From the NCBI GenBank assembly GCA_900142905.1, contig FSRV01000002.1:620001-684000 (forward strand): a DNA stretch of 64,000 nucleotides. Direction: 5' to 3'. A model generated the notes under the pieces. The model worked only from the letters and a program-made list of their open reading frames with translations. It was not told the origin of the DNA and did not search any database. Every line of letters begins with the position of its first letter. The stretch's first letter is position 1. Both the position numbers and the translations under genes were made by a program. Below, one piece after another: positions 12,824 through 34,087 of this stretch. The stretch comes from Burkholderia sp. GAS332. Its GTDB lineage: Bacteria; Pseudomonadota; Gammaproteobacteria; Burkholderiales; Burkholderiaceae.

Positions 12824-13414
12824 TCAGATCATCAGACGTGAGACCTTGGTGCCTTCGAGCGACACACCGGCCATCAGCCCGCCGTTCGTCAGCACAAAAG
12901 CTTCGACCGGGCTGGTGGCGGTCGAGGTATCGACCGCGCCGTTCGCGCCGACCTTCAGCACGGCGACCGTTGCATCGGCGCCTGCTGCCCATCCCTGGCT
13001 GTGCAGGAACGTGTCGAGTGCGTCTTGCGTCATGAACAGAAACACGAGCGCTTTGGACTGCGCGCCAATCTGCAAACCGAACGAGCCCGCGACGGTGCTG
13101 TAATAGCCCGCCGTGCGTCCGGCCACGCGCAACGCGCCTTCGCCGTATTGCCCACCGATCCAGAAGCCCGCCGAAATCACCGATGGGAACACGAGCACGC
13201 CGCGCGCTTTGTCGACGAGTTCACGCGAACCGGCAACGTTCGTGTAGAGACGCGACATGGTGGCATCGACCCCGGCATTAATCGAGTCACGCTTGCTGGC
13301 GTCCGTCGAAGACGACGCGCTCGAGGACGGCGACGTGGTCGTGCAGCCGGCGAGGCCAAAGCCGGCCGTAGCCAAAGCTGCACCTGTGGTCATGATGAAT
13401 TGTCGTCTGCGCAT
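12824..13414 (-). CDS. SYLF-domain (Ysc84/DUF500) lipoprotein
   Basis: 196 residues from ATG 13414, preceded by AAGGAGAACGATC. The N-terminus RRRQFIMTTGAALATAGFG...LAGC combines a twin-arginine-like motif with a lipobox (Cys at about residue 23), so it is an exported lipoprotein, possibly via Tat. The remainder is a SYLF/Ysc84 domain: ARGVLVFPSVISAGFWIGGQYGEG, GYYSTVAGSFGLQIGAQ and a SVEGTKVSRL-like end (SLEGTKVSRLMI). SYLF domains bind lipids such as phosphoinositides in eukaryotes; the bacterial role is unknown. Five tandem GTAGCCC units lie 66-100 bp upstream of the start. Confidence 0.88.
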   Translation of the reverse strand: MRRRQFIMTTGAALATAGFGLAGCTTTSPSSSASSSTDASKRDSINAGVDATMSRLYTNVAGSRELVDKARGVLVFPSVISAGFWIGGQYGEGALRVAGRTAGYYSTVAGSFGLQIGAQSKALVFLFMTQDALDTFLHSQGWAAGADATVAVLKVGANGAVDTSTATSPVEAFVLTNGGLMAGVSLEGTKVSRLMI

Positions 13415-13479
13415 GATCGTTCTCCTTGTGCGAGATGGAAGTTGCGTTTTCTTTTCGAACGGTGAGTGCCGTGACGCCG

Positions 13480-13514
13480 GTAGCCCGTAGCCCGTAGCCC
13501 GTAGCCCGTAGCCC
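13480..13514. repeat. Five tandem copies of GTAGCCC
   Basis: Perfect 7-bp units at 13480-13514, in the leader or promoter region of the SYLF lipoprotein gene. Because 7 is not a multiple of 3 and the array is non-coding, copy-number slippage would change promoter spacing. Confidence 0.9.
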
Positions 13515-13603
13515 GGCAAACCCCTACGCTTGCTAACCAGCATTTAGCGTGCCTGACGTCACGGCTCGTGTATCAGACAGCCGTGATGCGCGGACGTTCG
13601 CAC

Positions 13604-17246: not shown

Positions 17247-18007
17247 CTCTTTTCCTGTTGTCGATGAGGTTGCGATTTTTCTATTGTCGCCTGATTCAGC
17301 TTTCTCGCTCGCTCGCTCAGTGGGGTGGCGCACGGATAACGACGGCGCGGATGCAGATGTGATGTGTGTAACGGCGTGCGCCTCGTTTGCGCTCAGTGGT
17401 CGGCCTTATGTCTTCGCACTGTCTGTGTGATTGCGCTCACGCCCGCTCTTACAAATGCTATTTCGTGTCCGGACAAACACGGATACGAAACGGTGGTTCG
17501 TGTCACGGTCTACTCCCTTGCTCGAAAACTAGGCCCTGTGGGTGACAGGCTCGCCAGCGGATGATCGATTCATCTGACGAAGAGATCCAGTCGTCTATTA
17601 AAAATAATAATTTGGACTGCGTATCTAAGTGCGGAAATTAAGGCCTTTTAATAAATGGTAATTAACGATATTTGACAGTCGAGTAGCGCAATTAATCGGA
17701 AACAGGTCGGCAATATCGTATTGCGTGGGCTAGCGCACGGTCACTGGATCGCGCTCCGCATAACTTCAACGTCCATTAGGTCCTGCTGTGCTCTTTTCAA
17801 GGCTTTGTTCGCGCACAGCGAGTTGTTTCTCCCGGATCACGTCAAATCGGATCGGGATTATCTGCGAGAGAGATGTCGAGTGCCGTGCGGATCTCGTATG
17901 GCACGCAGCAATATCGATCGCGTTTTGAAGGGTCATTTATTGACAGCGAACAGCAGCTGACTCGTTGTCGGCATCTGTCTTTCAAAATATATAGTTAGGA
18001 GACTGAA
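17247..18007. other. 760-bp gene-free region with AT-rich island, upstream of the repeat-protein gene
   Basis: No supported gene. Bases 17581-17700 contain 41 G+C in 120 (34%), far below the surrounding sequence. Within it lie A/T tracts around TTAAAAATAATAATTT and TAATTAACGATATT. Such islands are typical H-NS-silenced promoters or traces of transfer. A small frame at 17721-17960 was not called because it has no family match and poor codon use. Confidence 0.5.
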
Positions 18008-19714
18008 ATGAAAAAGCAAAACGGGGACACGCGGACGTTGGGGACAAGTAAGGCTGTGTTGGCGGTTGCTGTGAGTCTTTATGCGGCAATGGCAGGCGCT
18101 CAAACGAGTCCGGCGGCACCTGCGGCACCGTCGGCAAGTTCGACGAAGCTGATGGTTGCGCAAACGTTGCCGATCGATTGTCCGCTATTCGACGCGTTTG
18201 GCTGTAAGCAGGAAGACGGTGGATCGCGGGCGTCCGGCGGAGTTGGCGTGGCGGCGGCCGCGGGTCTGGGGTCGACATCGCCTTCGGGCTCACAGAGCAG
18301 CAATGGCAGCGGGACTTCGTCGGCTGGGTTGGGCGCTAACGGTGGCGGGGGCGGATCGACGTCGAACGCGGCGGGACTCGGTGCTGGGGGGGCGGGGAGT
18401 GGTAGTGGGGGGAAGGGCGGGGCGGGTAGTGGTGGGAATGGTAGTGGTGGGACGGGCAGTGGTGGGACGGGCAGTGGTGGGACGGGCAGTGGTGGGACGG
18501 GCAGTGGTGGGACGGGGAGTGGTGGGACGGGGAGTGGCGGAACCGGCAGTGGTGGGACAGGCAGTGGTGGGACAGGCAGTGGCGGAACGGGCAGTGGTGG
18601 AACAGGCAGCGGTGGAACGGGCAGTGGTGGGACGGGCAGTGGTGGGACAGGCAGTGGTGGGACTGGCAGTGGCGGAACGGGCAGTGGTGGAACAGGCAGT
18701 GGTGGGACTGGCAGTGGCGGAACAGGTAGCGGTGGAACTGGCAGTGGTGGGACAGGCGGCAATGGTCATGGCGGTGGTGACGGCGGTCATGGCGATGGCG
18801 GTCATGGTGACGGTGGTCATGGCGATGGTGGCCACGGTGATGGCGGTCATGGCGATGGCGGTCATGGTGACGGCGGTCATGGTGACGGCGGTCATGGCGA
18901 TGGCGGTCATGGTGACGGTGGTCATGGCGATGGTGGCCACGGTGATGGCGGTCATGGCGATGGCGGTCATGGTGACGGCGGTCATGGTGACGGCGGTCAT
19001 GGCGATGGCGGTCATGGTGACGGTGGTCATGGTGATGGCGGTCACGGCGATGGTGGTCATGGTGACGGCGGCCACGGTGATGGCGGTCATGGCGACGGTG
19101 GTCATGGTGATGGCGGCCATGGCGACGGCGGTCATGGCGATGGCGGCCACGGTCATGGCGACGGTGGTCATGGTGATGGCGGTCATGGCGACGGCGGTCA
19201 CGGCGACGGTGGTCGTGGCGACGGCGGCGATGGCGGTCATGGCGGGCATGGCGACGGCGGGCACGGTGATGGTGGCCACGGCGACGGTGGTCATGGCGAC
19301 GGTGGCCACGGTGATGGCGGTCATGGTGACGGTGGCCATGGCGACGGTGGCCACGGCGACGGCGGCCACGGCGACGGTGGTCGTGGTGACGGCGGTCATG
19401 GCGACGGTGGTCGTGGTGACGGCGGCCATGGCGCTGGCGGTCACGGCGACGGTGGCCATGGCGATAGCGGTCATGGCGACGGTGGCCACGGTGATGGCGG
19501 TCATGGTGACGGTGGCCATGGCGATAGCGGTCATGGTGACGGTGGCCATGGCGATGGCGGTCACGGCGACGGTGGCCATGGTGACGGTGGCCACGGCGAC
19601 GCTGGCCACGGCAATGGAGGCCACGGCGACGGCGGCAAAGGCAGCAGCGGCCAAGGCCATGGCAGCGGCTCCGGCGGCCAAGGCGGCGGTTACGGCGGCG
19701 GCCACGGCCACTGA
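18008..19714 (+). CDS. Secreted low-complexity protein with TGSGG and HGDGG pentapeptide repeats
   Basis: 568 residues; AGGAG sits 9 bases before the ATG. A probable signal peptide (residues 1-35, ending AAMAGAQ) is followed by a short unique segment with two cysteines (CPLFDAFGC), then a Gly/Ser/Ala-rich linker. Bases 18452-18751 encode exactly 20 TGSGG units (15-bp minisatellite), and about 18788-19632 encode roughly 55 HGDGG-type units with occasional HGDSG, RGDGG, HGAGG and HGNGG variants. The C-terminus is GSGSGGQGGGYGGGHGH. No anchor or enzyme domain is seen. Regular His/Asp spacing suggests metal binding or a glycine-rich extracellular fibre; this is inference. It is not a standard RTX protein, whose repeat is nine residues. 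Frames on the other strand are open only because of the repeat. Confidence 0.8.
   Translation: MKKQNGDTRTLGTSKAVLAVAVSLYAAMAGAQTSPAAPAAPSASSTKLMVAQTLPIDCPLFDAFGCKQEDGGSRASGGVGVAAAAGLGSTSPSGSQSSNGSGTSSAGLGANGGGGGSTSNAAGLGAGGAGSGSGGKGGAGSGGNGSGGTGSGGTGSGGTGSGGTGSGGTGSGGTGSGGTGSGGTGSGGTGSGGTGSGGTGSGGTGSGGTGSGGTGSGGTGSGGTGSGGTGSGGTGSGGTGSGGTGSGGTGGNGHGGGDGGHGDGGHGDGGHGDGGHGDGGHGDGGHGDGGHGDGGHGDGGHGDGGHGDGGHGDGGHGDGGHGDGGHGDGGHGDGGHGDGGHGDGGHGDGGHGDGGHGDGGHGDGGHGDGGHGDGGHGDGGHGHGDGGHGDGGHGDGGHGDGGRGDGGDGGHGGHGDGGHGDGGHGDGGHGDGGHGDGGHGDGGHGDGGHGDGGHGDGGRGDGGHGDGGRGDGGHGAGGHGDGGHGDSGHGDGGHGDGGHGDGGHGDSGHGDGGHGDGGHGDGGHGDGGHGDAGHGNGGHGDGGKGSSGQGHGSGSGGQGGGYGGGHGH
18452..18751 (+). repeat. 15-bp minisatellite, 20 copies (TGSGG)
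   Basis: Twenty in-frame 15-bp units of the form ACGGGCAGTGGTGGG with silent differences between copies (ACA/ACT, GGA/GGG, AGT/AGC). Copy-number change would keep the frame. Confidence 0.95.
18788..19632 (+). repeat. 15-bp minisatellite, about 55 copies (HGDGG), with higher-order duplication
   Basis: In-frame 15-bp units CAYGGYGAYGGYGGY over about 845 bp. Bases 18796-18900 and 18901-19005 are an exact 105-bp (7-unit) tandem duplication including all silent variants, showing recent expansion. Phase breaks in the pattern occur near 19148 and 19215-19250. Confidence 0.93.
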
Positions 19715-24704: not shown

Positions 24705-26000
24705 TCATGTCGGCCAGAACATGCCGAGCGCGGCGAGCCCCATTGCGGCGGTGGCGATCCAGCCGACCCAGCGTAACCAGCCGGTCACCGCAAACTGACC
24801 CATGACTTTGGGGCTGGCCGCCATCACCATCACCAGCACCATGATCGGCACGGCCGCGACGCCGTTGATCACCGCGCTCCAATACAGTGCCTTGATCGGG
24901 TCGAGACGCATGAACGTGAGCGCAATGCCGCCGAGAATCGATACGGCGATCACGCCATAGAACTGCTTCGCCAGATTCACCTGCAACGCCAGGCTGTTGC
25001 GCCATTTCATCGAACCTGCAGCTGCGTAGGCCGCCGAACCCGCCAGCACCGGCAGCGCCAGCAGACCCGTGCCGATGATACCGAGACTGAACAGCGCAAA
25101 CGCCATGTTGCCGGCAATCGGCTTGAGCGCGCTGGCGGCATCGGCGGTGGTTTTGACTTCGATGTGATGCGCGTGCAGCGTGGCGGCGGCGGTGAGCATG
25201 ATAAAAAACGCTACGCCGTTCGAAACGGCCATGCCGACCCACGTATCGACGTTGATCCGCTTCAGTTGTGCAGCAGCTTGCATCGGCGCGCGCAATAGCG
25301 GTCGCTCTGCTGGTTTCGAGTGAATCTCCTCGACTTCCTGCGACGCTTGCCAGAAGAAGAGATATGGGCTGATCGTCGTCCCGAGCACCGCGACCACGGT
25401 GGTCAGATAGTCGCCGGACAATTGGACTGGCGGTTTCACGATGCTCAGACCGACTGCTTTCCAATCGATCGGAATCACGAAGATGATGGCGACGTAGGCG
25501 AACAACGCGAGCGTCAGCCATTTCAGAACGCTCGCATAGCGTTCGTATGGAATGAACACCTGCATCAGCAGGGACGCCGTGCCGAACAACGCGACGTAGA
25601 GTTGGACCGGGCCACCGATCACCAGTTTGGCGGCGGCGCCCATTGCCGCAAGATCGGCGGCGATATTGATGGTGTTGGCCGCGAGCAGCACCAGTACCGC
25701 AAGATACAAAACCGGCGCGGGGTAGTGACGGCGCAGATTGGTGGCGAGTCCGCTGCCCGTCACCCGTCCCATGCGCGCACTCACCAGTTGTATCGATACC
25801 ATCAGCGGGTAAGTGATCAGCAACGTCCATAGCAGTGCGAAGCCGAATTGCGCGCCGGCCTGCGAATAGGTGGCGATGCCGCTCGGGTCGTCGTCCGCTG
25901 CGCCGGTGATCAGGCCGGGGCCTAGCCGCTTCATCCAGGAGCGTTCGGCGATATCTTCAACAACAAGCTCCGGTTCGAGGTTTTCAGTGGTCATCGTCAT
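24705..26000 (-). CDS. Nramp-family transporter with non-canonical metal site
   Basis: 431 residues with 11 predicted membrane helices. Helix 1 has GAADDDPSGIATYSQAG, where canonical Nramp proteins have DPGN. The helix-6 segment reads LGTTISPYLFFWQASQEVEE, where canonical Mn/Fe transporters carry an A-M-P-H motif whose methionine binds soft metals; that methionine is missing. This pattern recalls Nramp-related magnesium transporters, so Mg2+ or another hard cation, or a non-metal substrate, is possible. It converges with marR (14 bp between stops). Starts at 26000 and 25994 are equivalent; no regulator box for Mn or Fe is visible. Confidence 0.82.
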   Translation of the reverse strand: MTMTTENLEPELVVEDIAERSWMKRLGPGLITGAADDDPSGIATYSQAGAQFGFALLWTLLITYPLMVSIQLVSARMGRVTGSGLATNLRRHYPAPVLYLAVLVLLAANTINIAADLAAMGAAAKLVIGGPVQLYVALFGTASLLMQVFIPYERYASVLKWLTLALFAYVAIIFVIPIDWKAVGLSIVKPPVQLSGDYLTTVVAVLGTTISPYLFFWQASQEVEEIHSKPAERPLLRAPMQAAAQLKRINVDTWVGMAVSNGVAFFIMLTAAATLHAHHIEVKTTADAASALKPIAGNMAFALFSLGIIGTGLLALPVLAGSAAYAAAGSMKWRNSLALQVNLAKQFYGVIAVSILGGIALTFMRLDPIKALYWSAVINGVAAVPIMVLVMVMAASPKVMGQFAVTGWLRWVGWIATAAMGLAALGMFWPT

Positions 26001-29299: not shown

Positions 29300-30112
29300 A
29301 TGCCCACGTTAGAGCAAATCCAAGCAAAGCTTAAGAAGCTCCAGGCGCAAGCGGACGTCCTTATTGCCCGGAAAGCACAAGTCGCAGTCGACCAGATCCG
29401 GGAGTTGATGCTCAAGCATGGCCTGACTACTGCGGATATCGAAGCAAAGGCAAAAGCGAAGCGCGCCGCGCGCGGCTTGAATGGGCATGCTGCAAGTGGC
29501 AAGGCAAAAGCCGCTGGCGCAGGCAAGTCGATTCCGAAGTACCGCGACAATGCAACTGGCGCGACATGGACGGGCCACGGGCGTGCACCGGCCTGGATTG
29601 CCGCCGTGAAAGACCGGACTCAATTCCTGATTGAAGGTGTGAGCGAACTGAAGTCCGCGGCGAAGGCAGCGGTCACTCACGCCAAAACCGGAAGCAAAGG
29701 TCAGCCTAAAGGCGCGCAACCGCCCAAGTACCTCGATCCGAAAACCGGCGCCACCTGGAGTGGGCGCGGTCCGGCGCCGGCATGGCTCGCAACGGTCAAA
29801 GACCGCACCAAGTTTCTGATCGATAGCGCCGCGGCGAGCAGCAATGTCGCCGCCAAAAAAGTAGCGACGGCGAAGAAGGCCGTAGCGTCCAAACCGGCTG
29901 CGAAGAAGGGCACGGCGGCGACTAAAAAAGCAGCGGCAAAGAAAAGCGCTGCCAAACCGGCTGCGAAGAAAGCCGCTGCAAAGAAGACAGCCGTGAAGAA
30001 AACCGCTGTGGCAAAGAAAGCGCCGGGTCGCAAGACGGGTGGTAGAGGCAAAGCCGGCGCGACGAGCGCTGCCGCAGCGCCGCAAACCTCAACGGTGCAA
30101 ACCGGCGCGTGA
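29300..30112 (+). CDS. H-NS-family nucleoid protein with two DNA-binding modules and H1-like tail
   Basis: 270 residues; AAGGAG lies 7 bases before the ATG. Residues 1-50 form the helical/coiled-coil oligomerisation part, though shorter than usual. Residues 80-110 (KYRDNATGATWTGHGRAPAWI) and 143-174 (KYLDPKTGATWSGRGPAPAWL) are two separate copies of the H-NS C-terminal DNA-binding module with the minor-groove loop TW[TS]G[HR]G.AP. Residues 185-255 are an Ala/Lys repeat tail like histone H1. Typical Burkholderia H-NS proteins are about 100 residues with one module. It should bind and perhaps bridge AT-rich DNA with raised affinity and silence transferred genes. It may be cotranscribed with the small gene 22 bp downstream. 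Confidence 0.88.
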   Translation: MPTLEQIQAKLKKLQAQADVLIARKAQVAVDQIRELMLKHGLTTADIEAKAKAKRAARGLNGHAASGKAKAAGAGKSIPKYRDNATGATWTGHGRAPAWIAAVKDRTQFLIEGVSELKSAAKAAVTHAKTGSKGQPKGAQPPKYLDPKTGATWSGRGPAPAWLATVKDRTKFLIDSAAASSNVAAKKVATAKKAVASKPAAKKGTAATKKAAAKKSAAKPAAKKAAAKKTAVKKTAVAKKAPGRKTGGRGKAGATSAAAAPQTSTVQTGA

Positions 30113-30620: not shown

Positions 30621-31190
30621 TCTTGTTAGCGGTCAGTGCCGTTTCGGCGTAGCCGCTTCTTTCCCCTCCTTGCGCCATCGCCCAAACGCTCGCTCCCTTA
30701 CGCAGCGTTGCGGGCGATCCGTTGCAATGGCTGTGCAACGCGCTGTGGTTTCCTTTCAATAAGATTTTCCCCGCCCATTTCGAACATATGCCCAATGATT
30801 TTTTTGGCTTTTATTTTTGAAACATGTTAAAAAGCTTTCCGTCATCCTATATTGACATGAAGTCTTCACGCAGTGCGGGCAGACTGGCGTCAACGAATGG
30901 CGTGCGGCAGCGATTGGCGCACCGTTATCGAAATTACATATAAATATATTACGAGGCATCGAACGCTCGATTGAAGCGGACCTGAGGTCAGGCACGCGTC
31001 ACAGAGAGCCGGCAGGTATCACGTCGAGTGGTGCGTGTTTCGGTGCAGTAGCGGTCGTCGTGGATCGGATTTGCCGGCGCAAAGGCAGATCGCATGGGCC
31101 TGATCCCCGGTAGTACGGCCGCAAGGCGTCCGCGAGCGCGGGCGCGGTATCGGTACGCATTTGCTTTGCGCAAGTGCATGCGAATACGCC
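30621..31190. promoter_or_regulatory. Promoter region of the rhamnolipid operon
   Basis: 570 bases without a gene. An AT-rich element around ATATAAATATATTA (about 30938-30953) could form the core promoter, and a short palindrome CCTGA-GG-TCAGG lies at 30981-30992. LuxR-type regulators control rhl operons in known producers, but I find no full 20-bp lux box. A stretch rich in A/T also lies near 30790-30860. Confidence 0.4.
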
Positions 31191-32171
31191 ATGCCCATCG
31201 AAAAACTCCTTGTTCCGCTACCGGCGGGCCTGAAAGTCTACGTTGAACGTCACGTATTCGATCCGGCCTTCGAGAGTGTCATTCTGATCAACGGCGCGCT
31301 GGCCACCACAGCGTCGTTCGGACAGACAATCAAATACCTCGGCGAACGCTATAACCCAATTTGTTTCGATTTACCTTATGCAGGTCAATCGAAAGCGCAT
31401 AACGTGTGCGACTTCGTCCTTACAAAAGACGATGAAGTCGACATTCTGCTGCATCTAATCGGCTTATTCGAGCCGAGCTTCCTGTTGTCGGTGTCGTGGG
31501 GCGGGGTGGCGTCGCTGCTGGCGCTCTCGCGGGCGCGCACCAGCGTGAGGCGCGCGGTGATTGCGTCATTCTCGCCGCGGCTCAACGCGGCGATGACCGC
31601 GTACGTGACCGCGGCACGCGACCACATCGCCGCCGGCGAAAATCTGAAGGCCGCACAACTGCTCAACGATACCGTTGGGCAGCATCTGCCGCGCATCATG
31701 AAGCTCTACAACTATCGCTACCTCTCTATGCTGCCACGCGATGAGCAGGACCAGGTGGCGTTTCACGTCGACCAGATTCTGGCCATCCGTCCAGAGGACT
31801 ATCTGCACGAGTTTCGCAACATCGATTGCGGTCTGAAATTCCTTAACGGCGAGCTCGACAACTACACCACGCCTGAGGACGCCCGCTCGCTCAGCGCGCA
31901 TCTGAAGCGCGCCGAGTTTCTCACGATCGAGCAGGCCGGGCACTTCCTCGATCTCGAAGGGCGGCCCGCGTTGCGCCAGGTGAAGACGGCGATTTTCGAT
32001 TACTTCGGCGCCGCGCCGGTGCAGGCGGCAGGCCGTGCGCTCGACTGTTTCGACGCGTTCGCCGCCCGCTCGCCCATCATGCCGGTGCAGCAACCCGCCA
32101 TTGCAAACGTCGCGAACGTCGCGTTGCAGGCCACCGCCGATCACTCGTTCCAACAGGTCGAACTACCGTGA
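31191..32171 (+). CDS. rhlA: RhlA, 3-(3-hydroxyalkanoyloxy)alkanoic acid synthase
   Basis: 326 residues from ATG 31191 (MPIEKLLVPLPAGLKVYVER, which aligns with the start of Pseudomonas RhlA). It is an alpha/beta-hydrolase-fold acyltransferase that joins two 3-hydroxyacyl-ACPs to give the lipid part of rhamnolipids. Matching landmarks are NGALATTASFGQT, DLPYAGQSKAHN, LLSVSWGGVASLLALSRA with nucleophile Ser102 (same number as in P. aeruginosa), and EQAGHFLDLE with the catalytic histidine. A C-terminal extension of about 40 residues follows. The stop overlaps the next start as GTGA. No strong ribosome site is visible; an upstream TTG at 31161 is the alternative. Confidence 0.95.
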   Translation: MPIEKLLVPLPAGLKVYVERHVFDPAFESVILINGALATTASFGQTIKYLGERYNPICFDLPYAGQSKAHNVCDFVLTKDDEVDILLHLIGLFEPSFLLSVSWGGVASLLALSRARTSVRRAVIASFSPRLNAAMTAYVTAARDHIAAGENLKAAQLLNDTVGQHLPRIMKLYNYRYLSMLPRDEQDQVAFHVDQILAIRPEDYLHEFRNIDCGLKFLNGELDNYTTPEDARSLSAHLKRAEFLTIEQAGHFLDLEGRPALRQVKTAIFDYFGAAPVQAAGRALDCFDAFAARSPIMPVQQPAIANVANVALQATADHSFQQVELP

Positions 32172-32737
32172 ATATCGCTCAGAGCATCGCCATCGTCGTA
32201 CCGTGGGCGCTGTGGCTGCTGTATTGGGTCGCCACTTCGAACCGCGTCAAGGAGACCGCGCGCAAAGAGGCGTCGCTGTCGCGCACGTTGCAGTCGATTC
32301 CGTTGATCGGTGGGGGCGCGCTGATCGTGCTGCCGGATTTCAACACAGCGGCGTTGTCCCTCGATCCGCATGCGATCGGGCCACTGCAGCTGGCCGGTTT
32401 GGCCGTGCTACTGGCCGGCCTGGCGTTTTCCGTGTGGGCGCGCCTGCATCTCGGCACCAACTGGAGCGTGTCGGTCACGCTGAAGGAAGGGCATGAGCTG
32501 GTGCGCAGCGGCCCTTATGGACTGGTTCGTCATCCGATCTATACCGGCTGTCTGCTGGCGCTCCTGGGCGCCGTGCTGATCGGCGCGCAATGGCGTGGCG
32601 TGGCTGGCCTGTTGCTGATTTTCGCGTCGCTGGCTTACAAGGTGCGGGTCGAAGAGAGCTGGTTGACCGGTCACTTCGGCCGTGCATACTCGCAGTATCG
32701 TCGCGACGTGGCCGCGCTGATTCCCGGTCTCTTCTGA
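32168..32737 (+). CDS. ICMT-family (isoprenylcysteine carboxyl methyltransferase-like) membrane methyltransferase
   Basis: 189 residues from a GTG at 32168 overlapping the rhlA stop. Four to five hydrophobic helices are followed by the family signature ELVRSGPYGLVRHPIYTG and the C-terminal VRVEESWLTGHFGRAYSQYRRDV, which bind S-adenosylmethionine and membrane substrate in ICMT/PEMT-type enzymes. These enzymes methylate carboxyl, amine or thiol groups of lipids or prenylated peptides. Its position inside the rhl operon, coupled to rhlA, suggests the free carboxyl of the hydroxyalkanoyloxy acid or rhamnolipid as substrate; this is inference. Not part of the classical Pseudomonas rhlAB unit. Confidence 0.88.
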   Translation: MNIAQSIAIVVPWALWLLYWVATSNRVKETARKEASLSRTLQSIPLIGGGALIVLPDFNTAALSLDPHAIGPLQLAGLAVLLAGLAFSVWARLHLGTNWSVSVTLKEGHELVRSGPYGLVRHPIYTGCLLALLGAVLIGAQWRGVAGLLLIFASLAYKVRVEESWLTGHFGRAYSQYRRDVAALIPGLF

Positions 32738-32746
32738 GCCGCCGGC

Positions 32747-34087
32747 ATGACGAGAGTCATCATCACCGCGATTGGGTCGGCGGGCGACGTGCATCCTTTG
32801 CTCGGCGTTGGCGCGGCGTTGGCTGCGCGCGGCCACGAGATCGTCTTCTGCACACATCCGCCGTTCGCGGAGGCTGCTACGCGCCAGGGTTTCGCGTTCG
32901 TGCCGATCGGCACCGCCGCCGAGTATGAAGTGGCGATGGCGAACCCGGCGCTATGGCATCAGCGTACCTCGTTCCGTACGCTGTGGGCGGTGATTGCGCC
33001 GACGCTGCGTCCGCATTTCGACACGCTGGCTGCGTTGGTCGACAACGACACCGTGATGGTCGGGACGTTGTGGGCCTTCTCCGCCCGGTTGATGCAGGAG
33101 TTGTACCGCGTGCCGTTCGTGTCGGTGCAAGTGTCGCCGTCGACCTTGCTCTCCGCGTATGCGCCGCCGACGCACCCGCGGCTGACCATTCCGCGCGGCT
33201 TACCGCTGGCTATCAAAGCGACGCTGCTGCGGCTGATCGAGCGGCAGGCGCTCGACAAGGTTTGTGGCCCGGCGCTGAATGCGTTGCGTGCGGAACTGGC
33301 GCTCGCACCGGCGCGACGCATTTTTGGCAAGTGGCTGCATTCGACCGACGGCGTGCTGTGTCTCTTTCCTGAATGGTTCGCGCAACCTCAGCCGGATTGG
33401 CCGGCGCCGCGCTGTCTCAGTGGTTTTCCGCTGTTCAACGACACGAGCGTGCCCGCGTCCGATCCGCAACTCGACGCTTTCCTCGCCGCCGGCGAGCGGC
33501 CCGTGGTTTTCACAGCGGGTTCGACCTTGATCGATCAGGATCGCTATGCGAATGCAGTAAGCGCGGCACTGATGGAAAGTGGGCTGCGCGGCATTCTTTT
33601 GACGCCGGATGCTCCTCCAGCCGATACAGCCGCCGCTCAGGCGGGGGCGCGTGCGGATGCACCGGGCGTGCTGCTCAAGCGGCGTTACGTGCCGCTGCAG
33701 AAGCTGTTGCCGCGTTGCCGGGCGCTGGTGCATCACGGCGGCATCGGCACGGCAGCGCTGGCCTATGCCGCCGGCATTCCGCAAGTGGTGACGCCATTCG
33801 CGCACGATCAGTTCGATAACGCGCAGCGTGTCGTCGTGAGCGGTTGCGGTGTTCGGCTCGATAGGCCACTGCAGCCGCAGGCGCTGGCGCGCGCATTGAA
33901 GCAGGTGCTCGGCAGCCCGTCAATCGCGACGCAGTGCGGCCGCATGCAGGACCGGCTCGCGACGTCGCCGGATGGTTGCGAGGCGGCGGCACGCTATATC
34001 GAAGGTCTCATGCGGACCGGCGTGCGCACGCAATCCGTTGGCCACACGTTTTCGCTGGCGTTAGCCGGCCGCGAACATAGCCTATGA
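32747..34087 (+). CDS. rhlB: RhlB, rhamnosyltransferase 1 (GT1 family)
   Basis: 446 residues. A GT-B glycosyltransferase of the UGT type: N-terminal ITAIGSAGDVHPLLGVGAALAARGHE and C-terminal nucleotide-sugar site with LLPRCRALVHHGGIGTAALAYAAGIPQVVTPFAHDQFDNAQRV. RhlB transfers rhamnose from dTDP-L-rhamnose to the RhlA product to make mono-rhamnolipid at the inner membrane. Gene order (rhlA, methyltransferase, rhlB, exporter, rhlC) fixes the assignment. It starts 9 bp after the methyltransferase stop and overlaps the exporter gene by ATGA. Confidence 0.94.
   Translation: MTRVIITAIGSAGDVHPLLGVGAALAARGHEIVFCTHPPFAEAATRQGFAFVPIGTAAEYEVAMANPALWHQRTSFRTLWAVIAPTLRPHFDTLAALVDNDTVMVGTLWAFSARLMQELYRVPFVSVQVSPSTLLSAYAPPTHPRLTIPRGLPLAIKATLLRLIERQALDKVCGPALNALRAELALAPARRIFGKWLHSTDGVLCLFPEWFAQPQPDWPAPRCLSGFPLFNDTSVPASDPQLDAFLAAGERPVVFTAGSTLIDQDRYANAVSAALMESGLRGILLTPDAPPADTAAAQAGARADAPGVLLKRRYVPLQKLLPRCRALVHHGGIGTAALAYAAGIPQVVTPFAHDQFDNAQRVVVSGCGVRLDRPLQPQALARALKQVLGSPSIATQCGRMQDRLATSPDGCEAAARYIEGLMRTGVRTQSVGHTFSLALAGREHSL

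Follow-up and report, generated by a model that had tools for sequence, protein, structure and literature searches.

The PE_PGRS proteins of mycobacteria are glycine-rich, low-complexity repeat proteins that vary in length and occur in one genus. GrrA is a glycine-rich repeat peptide that goes together with GrrM, a radical-SAM maturase. The repeat motif of the pentapeptide repeat family PF00805 is A(D/N)LXX, with a central Leu or Phe. The histidine-rich beak proteins of squid and the elastin-like pentapeptides are of animal or engineered origin, and their association is driven by aromatic or hydrophobic residues. The RTX repeat, according to PMC6891781, is a nonapeptide of proteins exported by type I secretion. 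In the stretch of DNA analyzed here (64 kb, hereafter the window), we examined a gene whose glycine-rich repeat product bears a predicted export signal. It belongs to a genus-specific, real and selected protein family of Paraburkholderia that is so far uncharacterized.

The coding sequence (18008..19714, + strand) starts with ATG, encodes 568 amino acids and has homologues. A Shine-Dalgarno-like TTAGGAG (17995..18001, +) precedes it and is kept in most rows of the upstream alignment A2. The N-terminus looks like a signal peptide (18008..18100, +) with n, h and c regions, an AxA cleavage site and no lipobox, as judged by eye from sequence and conservation; cleavage is predicted, by eye, between A31 and Q32 (AGA followed by Q). 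The protein is apparently exported, as the initial annotation had proposed in calling it a secreted repeat protein. The mature head (18101..18451, +) contains C58 and C66, each found in 61/62 heads compared, and passes into an irregular Gly/Ser/Ala linker; head and linker place about 115 residues between the signal peptide and the repeats. There follow exactly 20 consecutive TGSGG units (18452..18751, +; aa 149-248), the number given by the initial annotation, and 56 HGDGG-type units of the form [HRK]G[DANS][GSA]G (18788..19651, +; aa 261-548), where about 55 had been counted. All 56 are in register and 47 are exact. A distinct C-terminal tail (19652..19711, +), recognized from its sequence and from the terminal His across copies, ends in GGGYGGGHGH. 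Tandem Repeats Finder independently delimited 22.6 copies of a 15-bp unit at 18419-18757 for the TGSGG block and 56.8 copies of a 15-bp unit at 18775-19635 for the HGDGG block. The conserved leader, the unusual conservation of the signal peptide, the head and linker with the Cys pair, and the GGGYGGGHGH end were absent from the initial annotation.

The synonymous sites of the repeats vary while the residues are fixed. Among the 56 HGDGG-like units pS was 0.656 and pN 0.040 (pN/pS 0.061); among the 20 TGSGG units pS was 0.457 and pN 0 (pN/pS 0.000). The repeat residues of the window's gene are therefore under purifying selection at the protein level, and the reading frame of the repeats is not a product of chance, as third positions vary while the frame holds. 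Exact duplications of up to 150 bp, the longest word tested, were found, indicating that the array grows by block duplication. Such multi-unit exact duplications are a sign of recent slippage or recombination in the array. The source genome is in 3 contigs, the array is internal to one of them, and the head occurs once in the genome. A 15-nt pattern for GDGGH gave 72 matches in this genome, 47 in the gene and 25 scattered, and its backwards control gave 14.

We examined the distribution of the gene with the 76-residue head. The head was found in 64/144 genomes of the genus, with one match each (E 1e-3 or better), and had no match in the other 80/144; the gene is therefore dispensable or replaced in those genomes. 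A profile of 28 heads reached 71/144 genomes, 7 beyond the single-head search. One of the seven, G069, is a distant relative (E 1.2e-11), and its glycine-rich repeat protein was read. The six further matches are weak (E 1e-4 to 6e-4) and were not counted as relatives; the only one inspected, L151, specifies a protein without a glycine-rich repeat. In a family-wide sample of 398 genomes, strong head matches were confined to the same genus, and seven genomes of other genera gave weak matches only (E 2e-4 to 6e-4). A named-genome collection searched with one peptide pattern yielded 38 loci titled Paraburkholderia or Burkholderia sp., from which we take the genus name; named carriers include P. 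xenovorans LB400 (L107), P. fungorum, P. bryophila and P. tuberum. A DNA pattern for two HGDGG units was present in 48/144 genomes of the genus, all 48 head-positive, and in 1/369 genomes of a class-wide sample, which was the source genome itself. The head was not matched in the plasmid collection. Searching protein databases with it returned nothing, which we took as a limit of such searches on low-complexity proteins, given the 64 genome-level matches.

The 64 loci (63 fetched plus the window) were compared for gene neighborhood. At 56/64 loci, the first 6 kb upstream include a homologue of the Ysc84-domain gene or of the FAD-dependent oxidase gene seen in the window; the repeat gene is therefore mostly inherited at one locus. 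The neighbors in the window encode an SDR, a zinc-type alcohol dehydrogenase, a berberine-type FAD oxidase, a carbon-nitrogen hydrolase, an MFS transporter, a sulfatase and a MarR regulator. Across the loci we found no constant, obvious functional partner gene.

The homologue search that the initial annotation had suggested found relatives in 64/144 genomes, and 45/64 copies are complete, in frame and carry a glycine-rich repeat tail; for L093, which is among the 45, reading began at a non-Met position. Eleven of the 64 copies end at contig edges and two have N gaps in the array (L040 and L049). Five of the 64 are broken or interrupted, through either real damage or sequencing error: L050 and L079 shift frame within the array or immediately ahead of it, L059 has an interrupted array, L051 has a stop at codon 4, and L056 seems to lose its frame and continue into the neighboring hydrolase gene. 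L094, a weak match with a different start, was set aside. The broken copies, together with the multi-unit exact duplications, would fit a drifting, non-functional slippage array that is open by luck. We regard this explanation as very unlikely in view of the low pN/pS, the signal peptide and Cys pair kept over 62 heads, the terminal His of 44/45 complete copies and the leader of 57/64 loci.

The signal peptide is the best-conserved part of the protein. When 62 heads were compared (all but L051 and L094), the mean pairwise column identity was 0.75 for residues 1-32, compared with 0.37 and 0.42 for the next two stretches, and A19, V22 and A26 were invariant. Signal peptides are usually less conserved than the remainder of a protein, and the pattern is reversed here. 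Fourfold third positions agreed in 0.63 of comparisons in both the signal peptide and a neighboring gene (49 loci). Because the fourfold sites of the signal peptide are no more conserved than those of the neighbor, the conservation is at the protein level, and an RNA constraint reaching into the coding region is unsupported. Twin arginines are present in only 34/62 heads (the window protein has SK), thus export as a Tat substrate is not indicated.

The tails of the 45 complete copies vary in length and are 50-61% glycine. The pattern xGx(x/G)G accounts for 0.55-0.87 of the tail in 44/45 copies, the exception being L093 at 0.08; under the strict form xGxGG, the lowest coverage after L093 is 0.38. 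His ends the protein in all of the 45 except L048. The His count follows the Asp+Glu count (r = 0.94, n = 45), and units with His first have Asp third in 84%. The computed pI has a median of 5.44 (window 5.31), and the computed charge has medians of -49 at pH 7.5 and +12 at pH 5 (45 copies). By median position, T/S-type units come before H/D-type units in 18 of the 31 copies that contain five or more of both; this block order is not universal.

The tail of the window protein has 58 His, 55 Asp+Glu and 1 aromatic residue. In low-complexity regions of prokaryotic Ni/Co-binding proteins, His and, less strongly, Asp are enriched (PMC6821194). By analogy, metal binding by the H/D repeats is plausible. 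The protein might then be an extracytoplasmic metal sponge, in which the HGDGG block would serve to buffer or sequester Ni, Zn, Cu or Co, leaving the Gly/Thr/Ser block as a mere spacer. A gene for an Nramp-family metal transporter (PF01566 by Pfam) at 24705-26000, about 5 kb downstream of the repeat gene, would suit this role, and in 5/64 loci, window included, a homologue follows within 9 kb downstream; in the other 59, some of them on short contigs, Nramp is not near. What speaks most strongly against a purely metal-binding role is the pair L060 and L061, which have 4-5 Asp+Glu and 13-14 His, their H/D units being largely replaced by T/A and by Q/N or Q/S units. Both retain the polymer, the signal peptide, the Cys pair, the terminal His and the leader. 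L043 (14 His, 9 Asp+Glu) likewise keeps the remaining architecture. We therefore consider a dedicated metal sponge unlikely, though it deserves attention. On the sequences compared, H/D cannot define the whole family, because L060 and L061 keep the polymer with few Asp+Glu and His. Since these two keep the architecture despite the loss of H/D, the polymer looks like the core function. This points to a glycine-rich, period-five polymer as the common denominator of the family, with H/D as its prevalent flavor.

A tail that varies in length and composition behind a constant signal peptide could also suggest a surface or secreted factor directed toward plants, fungi or competitors and made hypervariable by arms-race selection. 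The genus is rich in plant- and soil-associated species, which would suit such a factor. However, the residues of the window array are conserved rather than diversified (pN/pS 0.06), and neither Pfam nor NCBIfam recognized a binding domain. An interaction factor of this kind seems improbable to us.

Domain searches at E up to 10 returned no match in Pfam, where the window protein and five relatives were run, or in NCBIfam, where the window protein and six relatives were run; PDB sequences (E up to 1) gave none for the window protein. The claim that no anchor domain is present is borne out to the extent that Pfam and NCBIfam recognized none. PF00805 was rejected, as the units are HGDGG and TGSGG and Pfam gave no match; PE_PGRS was rejected, as Pfam found no N-terminal PE domain. 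Collagen-like proteins, which are built of Gly-X-Y triplets, were set aside because the Gly pattern of the window tail agrees at 0.89 at lag 5 versus 0.59 at lag 3. The initial annotation had placed the period of five apart from both collagen and RTX, and this is confirmed. The tandem Gly/Asp-rich repeats could still recall a calcium-binding RTX-like protein or another folded beta-solenoid. Such a fold is extremely unlikely, as the period is 15 nt or five residues and not nine, hydrophobic residues are almost absent from the repeats, PF00353 and all other Pfam models gave nothing at E up to 10, and AlphaFold2 gave no confident fold. The AlphaFold2 model from a 12-sequence alignment had a mean pLDDT of 38.7 and a pTM of 0.20, with a helix at 2-33 (the signal peptide) and no other secondary structure. 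We read this low-confidence model as disorder, with caution, as AlphaFold2 is weak on such repeats. With the same caution about the program, the defined glycine-rich fiber considered in the initial annotation finds no support in this model.

Glycine-rich repeats behind a signal peptide are also what a precursor modified by a radical-SAM maturase would have, as in GrrA or the His-Xaa-Ser repeat peptides. A search of the protein database with the HGDGG array returned two compositional look-alikes only; one of them, a radical-SAM protein, has an HGDS tail. Nevertheless, NCBIfam gave no precursor match for seven members, none of the eight flanking proteins scanned is a radical-SAM protein, and the GrrM model TIGR04261 had no match above its cut-off in 144 genomes of the genus. 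Weaker TIGR04261 matches in 52 genomes, 21 of them head-positive, showed no association with the 64/144 head-positive genomes. We thus rejected assignment to the GrrA/GrrM system, and a radical-SAM precursor in general is hardly credible.

Several hundred bases ahead of the ATG are conserved. RNAalifold on 25 of the 64 upstream sequences first proposed a branched fold there, and a probable structured leader RNA of about 178 nt was placed at 17760..17938 (+) by alignment A3 (57/64 leaders) and covariance model R1. The consensus fold consists of an outer helix P1 (17762-17769/17925-17932 and 17779-17783/17920-17924), P2 (17785-17791/17813-17819), P3 (17822-17825/17915-17918), P4 (17827-17834/17865-17872) and P5 (17874-17886/17898-17910), all on the + strand. 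Seven loci (L087 and L089-L094) could not be aligned in this region and were left out of A3. The 57 leaders are 171-186 nt long and differ by single-base indels, which makes it unlikely that the leader is coding. The RNAalifold consensus energy was -64.0 kcal/mol, versus -30.6 +/- 3.6 (minimum -40.3) for 60 column-shuffled alignments. As a single sequence, the window leader folds moderately better than its shuffles (z -2.07), and that of L047 has z -4.41.

We then compared the base changes in the leader with several nulls. Of the 50 pairs, 29 had at least one change on both sides (18 +/- 2 in shuffled alignments, 12-19 with slid partners), and 148 cells were double-changed (54 +/- 7 in 500 shuffles, 24-55 with slid partners). 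In a tree-based null, the inferred substitutions of each column were moved to random branches in 500 permutations. The paired fraction was 0.903 versus 0.828 +/- 0.018, the double-changed cells 148 versus 38 +/- 13 and the doubly changed pairs 29 versus 15 +/- 3; 0/500 permutations reached the observed value in each case. Because the consensus structure was derived from the same alignment on which it was scored, the test was repeated with the single-sequence minimum free energy fold of L047 (62 pairs, 32 of them in the consensus), scored on the other 56 leaders. Double-changed cells (151 versus 67 +/- 15) and doubly changed pairs (36 versus 24 +/- 3) were again reached by 0/500 permutations, and the paired fraction (0.79 versus 0.75) by 2/500. 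A generic tree-based, APC-corrected G-test with 60 simulated nulls gave no significant leader pair, and its top-ranked column pairs were mostly outside the leader structure. Double substitutions on the same branch were not enriched (25 versus a null of 18.7 +/- 4.0 and slid decoys of 19-26). G-U cells numbered 390 versus 83 A-C cells, which fits an RNA on the strand of the gene.

R1 found the leader in 57/144 genomes of the genus, the same 57 from which it was built, with one copy each, and in 18/398 genomes of the family sample, all of the same genus; these scans used Infernal's stricter filters. The leader copies compared end 65-71 nt ahead of the gene. Divergent copies were not matched by R1; among them, the clade of L087 and L089-L092 has a conserved upstream region of its own. 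Rfam gave 0 matches to 17334-18100 of the window at E up to 1, and for the leader loci L047, L009 and L003 it gave two weak matches, both in L047 and outside the leader. The leader did not sequester the Shine-Dalgarno sequence in a consistent way: the unpaired probability was below 0.3 in 21/55 and above 0.7 in 6/55, and thus no switching mechanism is visible. From these comparisons, the leader is a probable new structured RNA element tied to one gene.

Just upstream of the leader is a 20-nt box, TGCGTGGGCTAGCGCACGGT (17722..17741, +), that is near-invariant in 25 aligned upstream regions. It may be an operator, a promoter element or an outer RNA hairpin. Allowing up to 3 mismatches, the box occurs once in the window, and its sole mismatch-free match in the source genome is at the repeat gene; the second-best site, with 2 mismatches, falls within an ORF. 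A search for a regulon in the source genome gave 17 matches with up to 3 mismatches, versus 28 for the backwards control. The proximity of this box, the long-range outer helix that closes the element ahead of a U-rich stretch, and the negative generic covariation test would all suit a separate small RNA, or a conserved promoter or operator stretch, in place of an mRNA leader. Against this, the element accompanies the repeat gene alone: under the strict filters, 57 of the 144 genomes have it, 65-71 nt upstream of the gene, and it occurs at no other place. The excess of G-U over A-C argues against a DNA-only element, and a small RNA is unaffected by that argument. We judge these alternatives to the mRNA leader rather unlikely, but to be taken seriously.

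Taken together, we tentatively prefer, with confidence somewhat short of even, that the family is an exported disordered polymer, probably a pH- and metal-responsive material of the envelope or matrix under the control of its leader. The protein polymer would be genus-specific and mostly vertically inherited, exported presumably by Sec with cleavage after A31, and C58 and C66 might form a disulfide. The tail would be a hydrated, disordered polyampholyte with a charge of about -50 at pH 7.5 that becomes slightly positive at pH 5 (pI 5.3). Acid pH or divalent metals could collapse or crosslink it through the His and Asp placed every five residues, giving a gel-like material that would lie in the periplasm, at the cell surface or in the matrix. 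We saw no path for the repeat protein through the outer membrane, and it may therefore be retained in the periplasm. The leader RNA would set the timing or amount of the protein made, and slippage or unequal recombination would alter the copy number, so that chain length changes while function is kept. A more specific proposal is a dedicated two-part module of Paraburkholderia, in which a new class of structured leader RNA would sense pH or a metal as a cue relevant to the envelope and switch on a secreted, disordered HGDGG polymer of balanced charge that condenses or crosslinks in response to that cue. The result would be a bacterial smart-polymer material of the matrix, controlled in the manner of a riboswitch. 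We offer this only as a speculation with a small chance of being correct.

Searches of the open full-text literature showed, in titles and the beginnings of abstracts, no description of the protein or the leader; most subscription journals and all preprints lie outside that collection. HGDGG itself also occurs in a COG0523 protein, as part of a His-rich stretch (PMC2770081). The family is of interest as a genus-wide, apparently exported family that Pfam and NCBIfam do not recognize, and one whose constant parts are the signal peptide, the Cys pair, the terminal residue and the leader, not the repeat itself. Should the leader fold prove real, it would be a new candidate among cis-regulatory RNAs, associated with a single gene. 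(HGDGG)n is an attractive natural candidate for a pH- and metal-responsive biomaterial.

Compared with the known systems, the Paraburkholderia protein resembles PE_PGRS in being rich in Gly, variable in length, of low complexity and restricted to one genus. Unlike PE_PGRS, it lacks a PE domain, is built of period-five H/D and T/S units and has one head match per genome. With GrrA it has glycine-rich repeats in common, but it has no NCBIfam match, and GrrM is below the cut-off in 144 genomes. Like RTX proteins (PF00353), it joins tandem Gly/Asp-rich repeats to apparent secretion, whereas its repeat is of five residues, its predicted signal peptide is N-terminal and Pfam gives no match. The leader resembles the structured mRNA leaders of bacteria (Rfam cis-regulatory) in placing a conserved fold, branched and RNA-like, directly ahead of a single gene; it differs from them in lacking any Rfam match (E up to 1) and in being found with this one gene only. 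The squid beak and elastin-like proteins share with this family the disordered, glycine-rich pentapeptide repeats, and it is by analogy with them, with no homology claimed, that a response to pH or metal is proposed. In contrast to them, the Paraburkholderia tail is almost free of aromatic and hydrophobic residues, the tail of the window protein having a single aromatic one.

Several of the 64 loci that carry relatives of the repeat gene contain damaged copies. The repeat array is interrupted or frame-shifted at loci L059, L050 and L079, and the copy at L056 apparently continues out of frame into the adjoining hydrolase gene. The L051 copy has a stop at codon 4 and yet keeps its leader; the genome that contains it is 4.3 Mb. 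The divergent clade (L087 and L089-L092) has an upstream region of its own, which is strongly conserved (80% mean column identity, n = 5 sequences) and gave no match to the main covariance model of the putative leader RNA.

A radical-SAM protein, P0002, came from the database search with the HGDGG array, which it resembles in composition; it carries PF04055 and PF13353, and its HGDS-type repeats form a C-terminal tail. A GrrM-like radical-SAM maturase (genome G127, contig C33, 22958-24094) scored 289 bits, slightly below the 310-bit family cut-off, and its host, a single genome, is positive for the N-terminal head of the repeat protein.

In the window, an Nramp-family metal transporter gene (24705-26000, minus strand) sits roughly 5 kb beyond the 3' end of the repeat gene. 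A homologue is found no more than 9 kb downstream in 5 of the 64 loci, the window's included.

The heptanucleotide GCCCGTA is repeated 5.7 times at 13476-13515, by the 5' end of a Ysc84-domain ORF (12824-13543, minus strand). The repeat is probably located upstream of the true start of this ORF and may be a regulatory repeat that varies by slippage.

A 270-aa H-NS-type protein (29300-30112, plus strand) matched PF00816, the H-NS C-terminal DNA-binding domain, over two stretches and has a long tail rich in Lys and Ala. It would be an unusual, two-domain H-NS. An alpha/beta hydrolase gene followed by a GT28/UGT-type glycosyltransferase gene occupies 31161-34087 on the plus strand, an arrangement resembling the rhlA-rhlB rhamnolipid pair.
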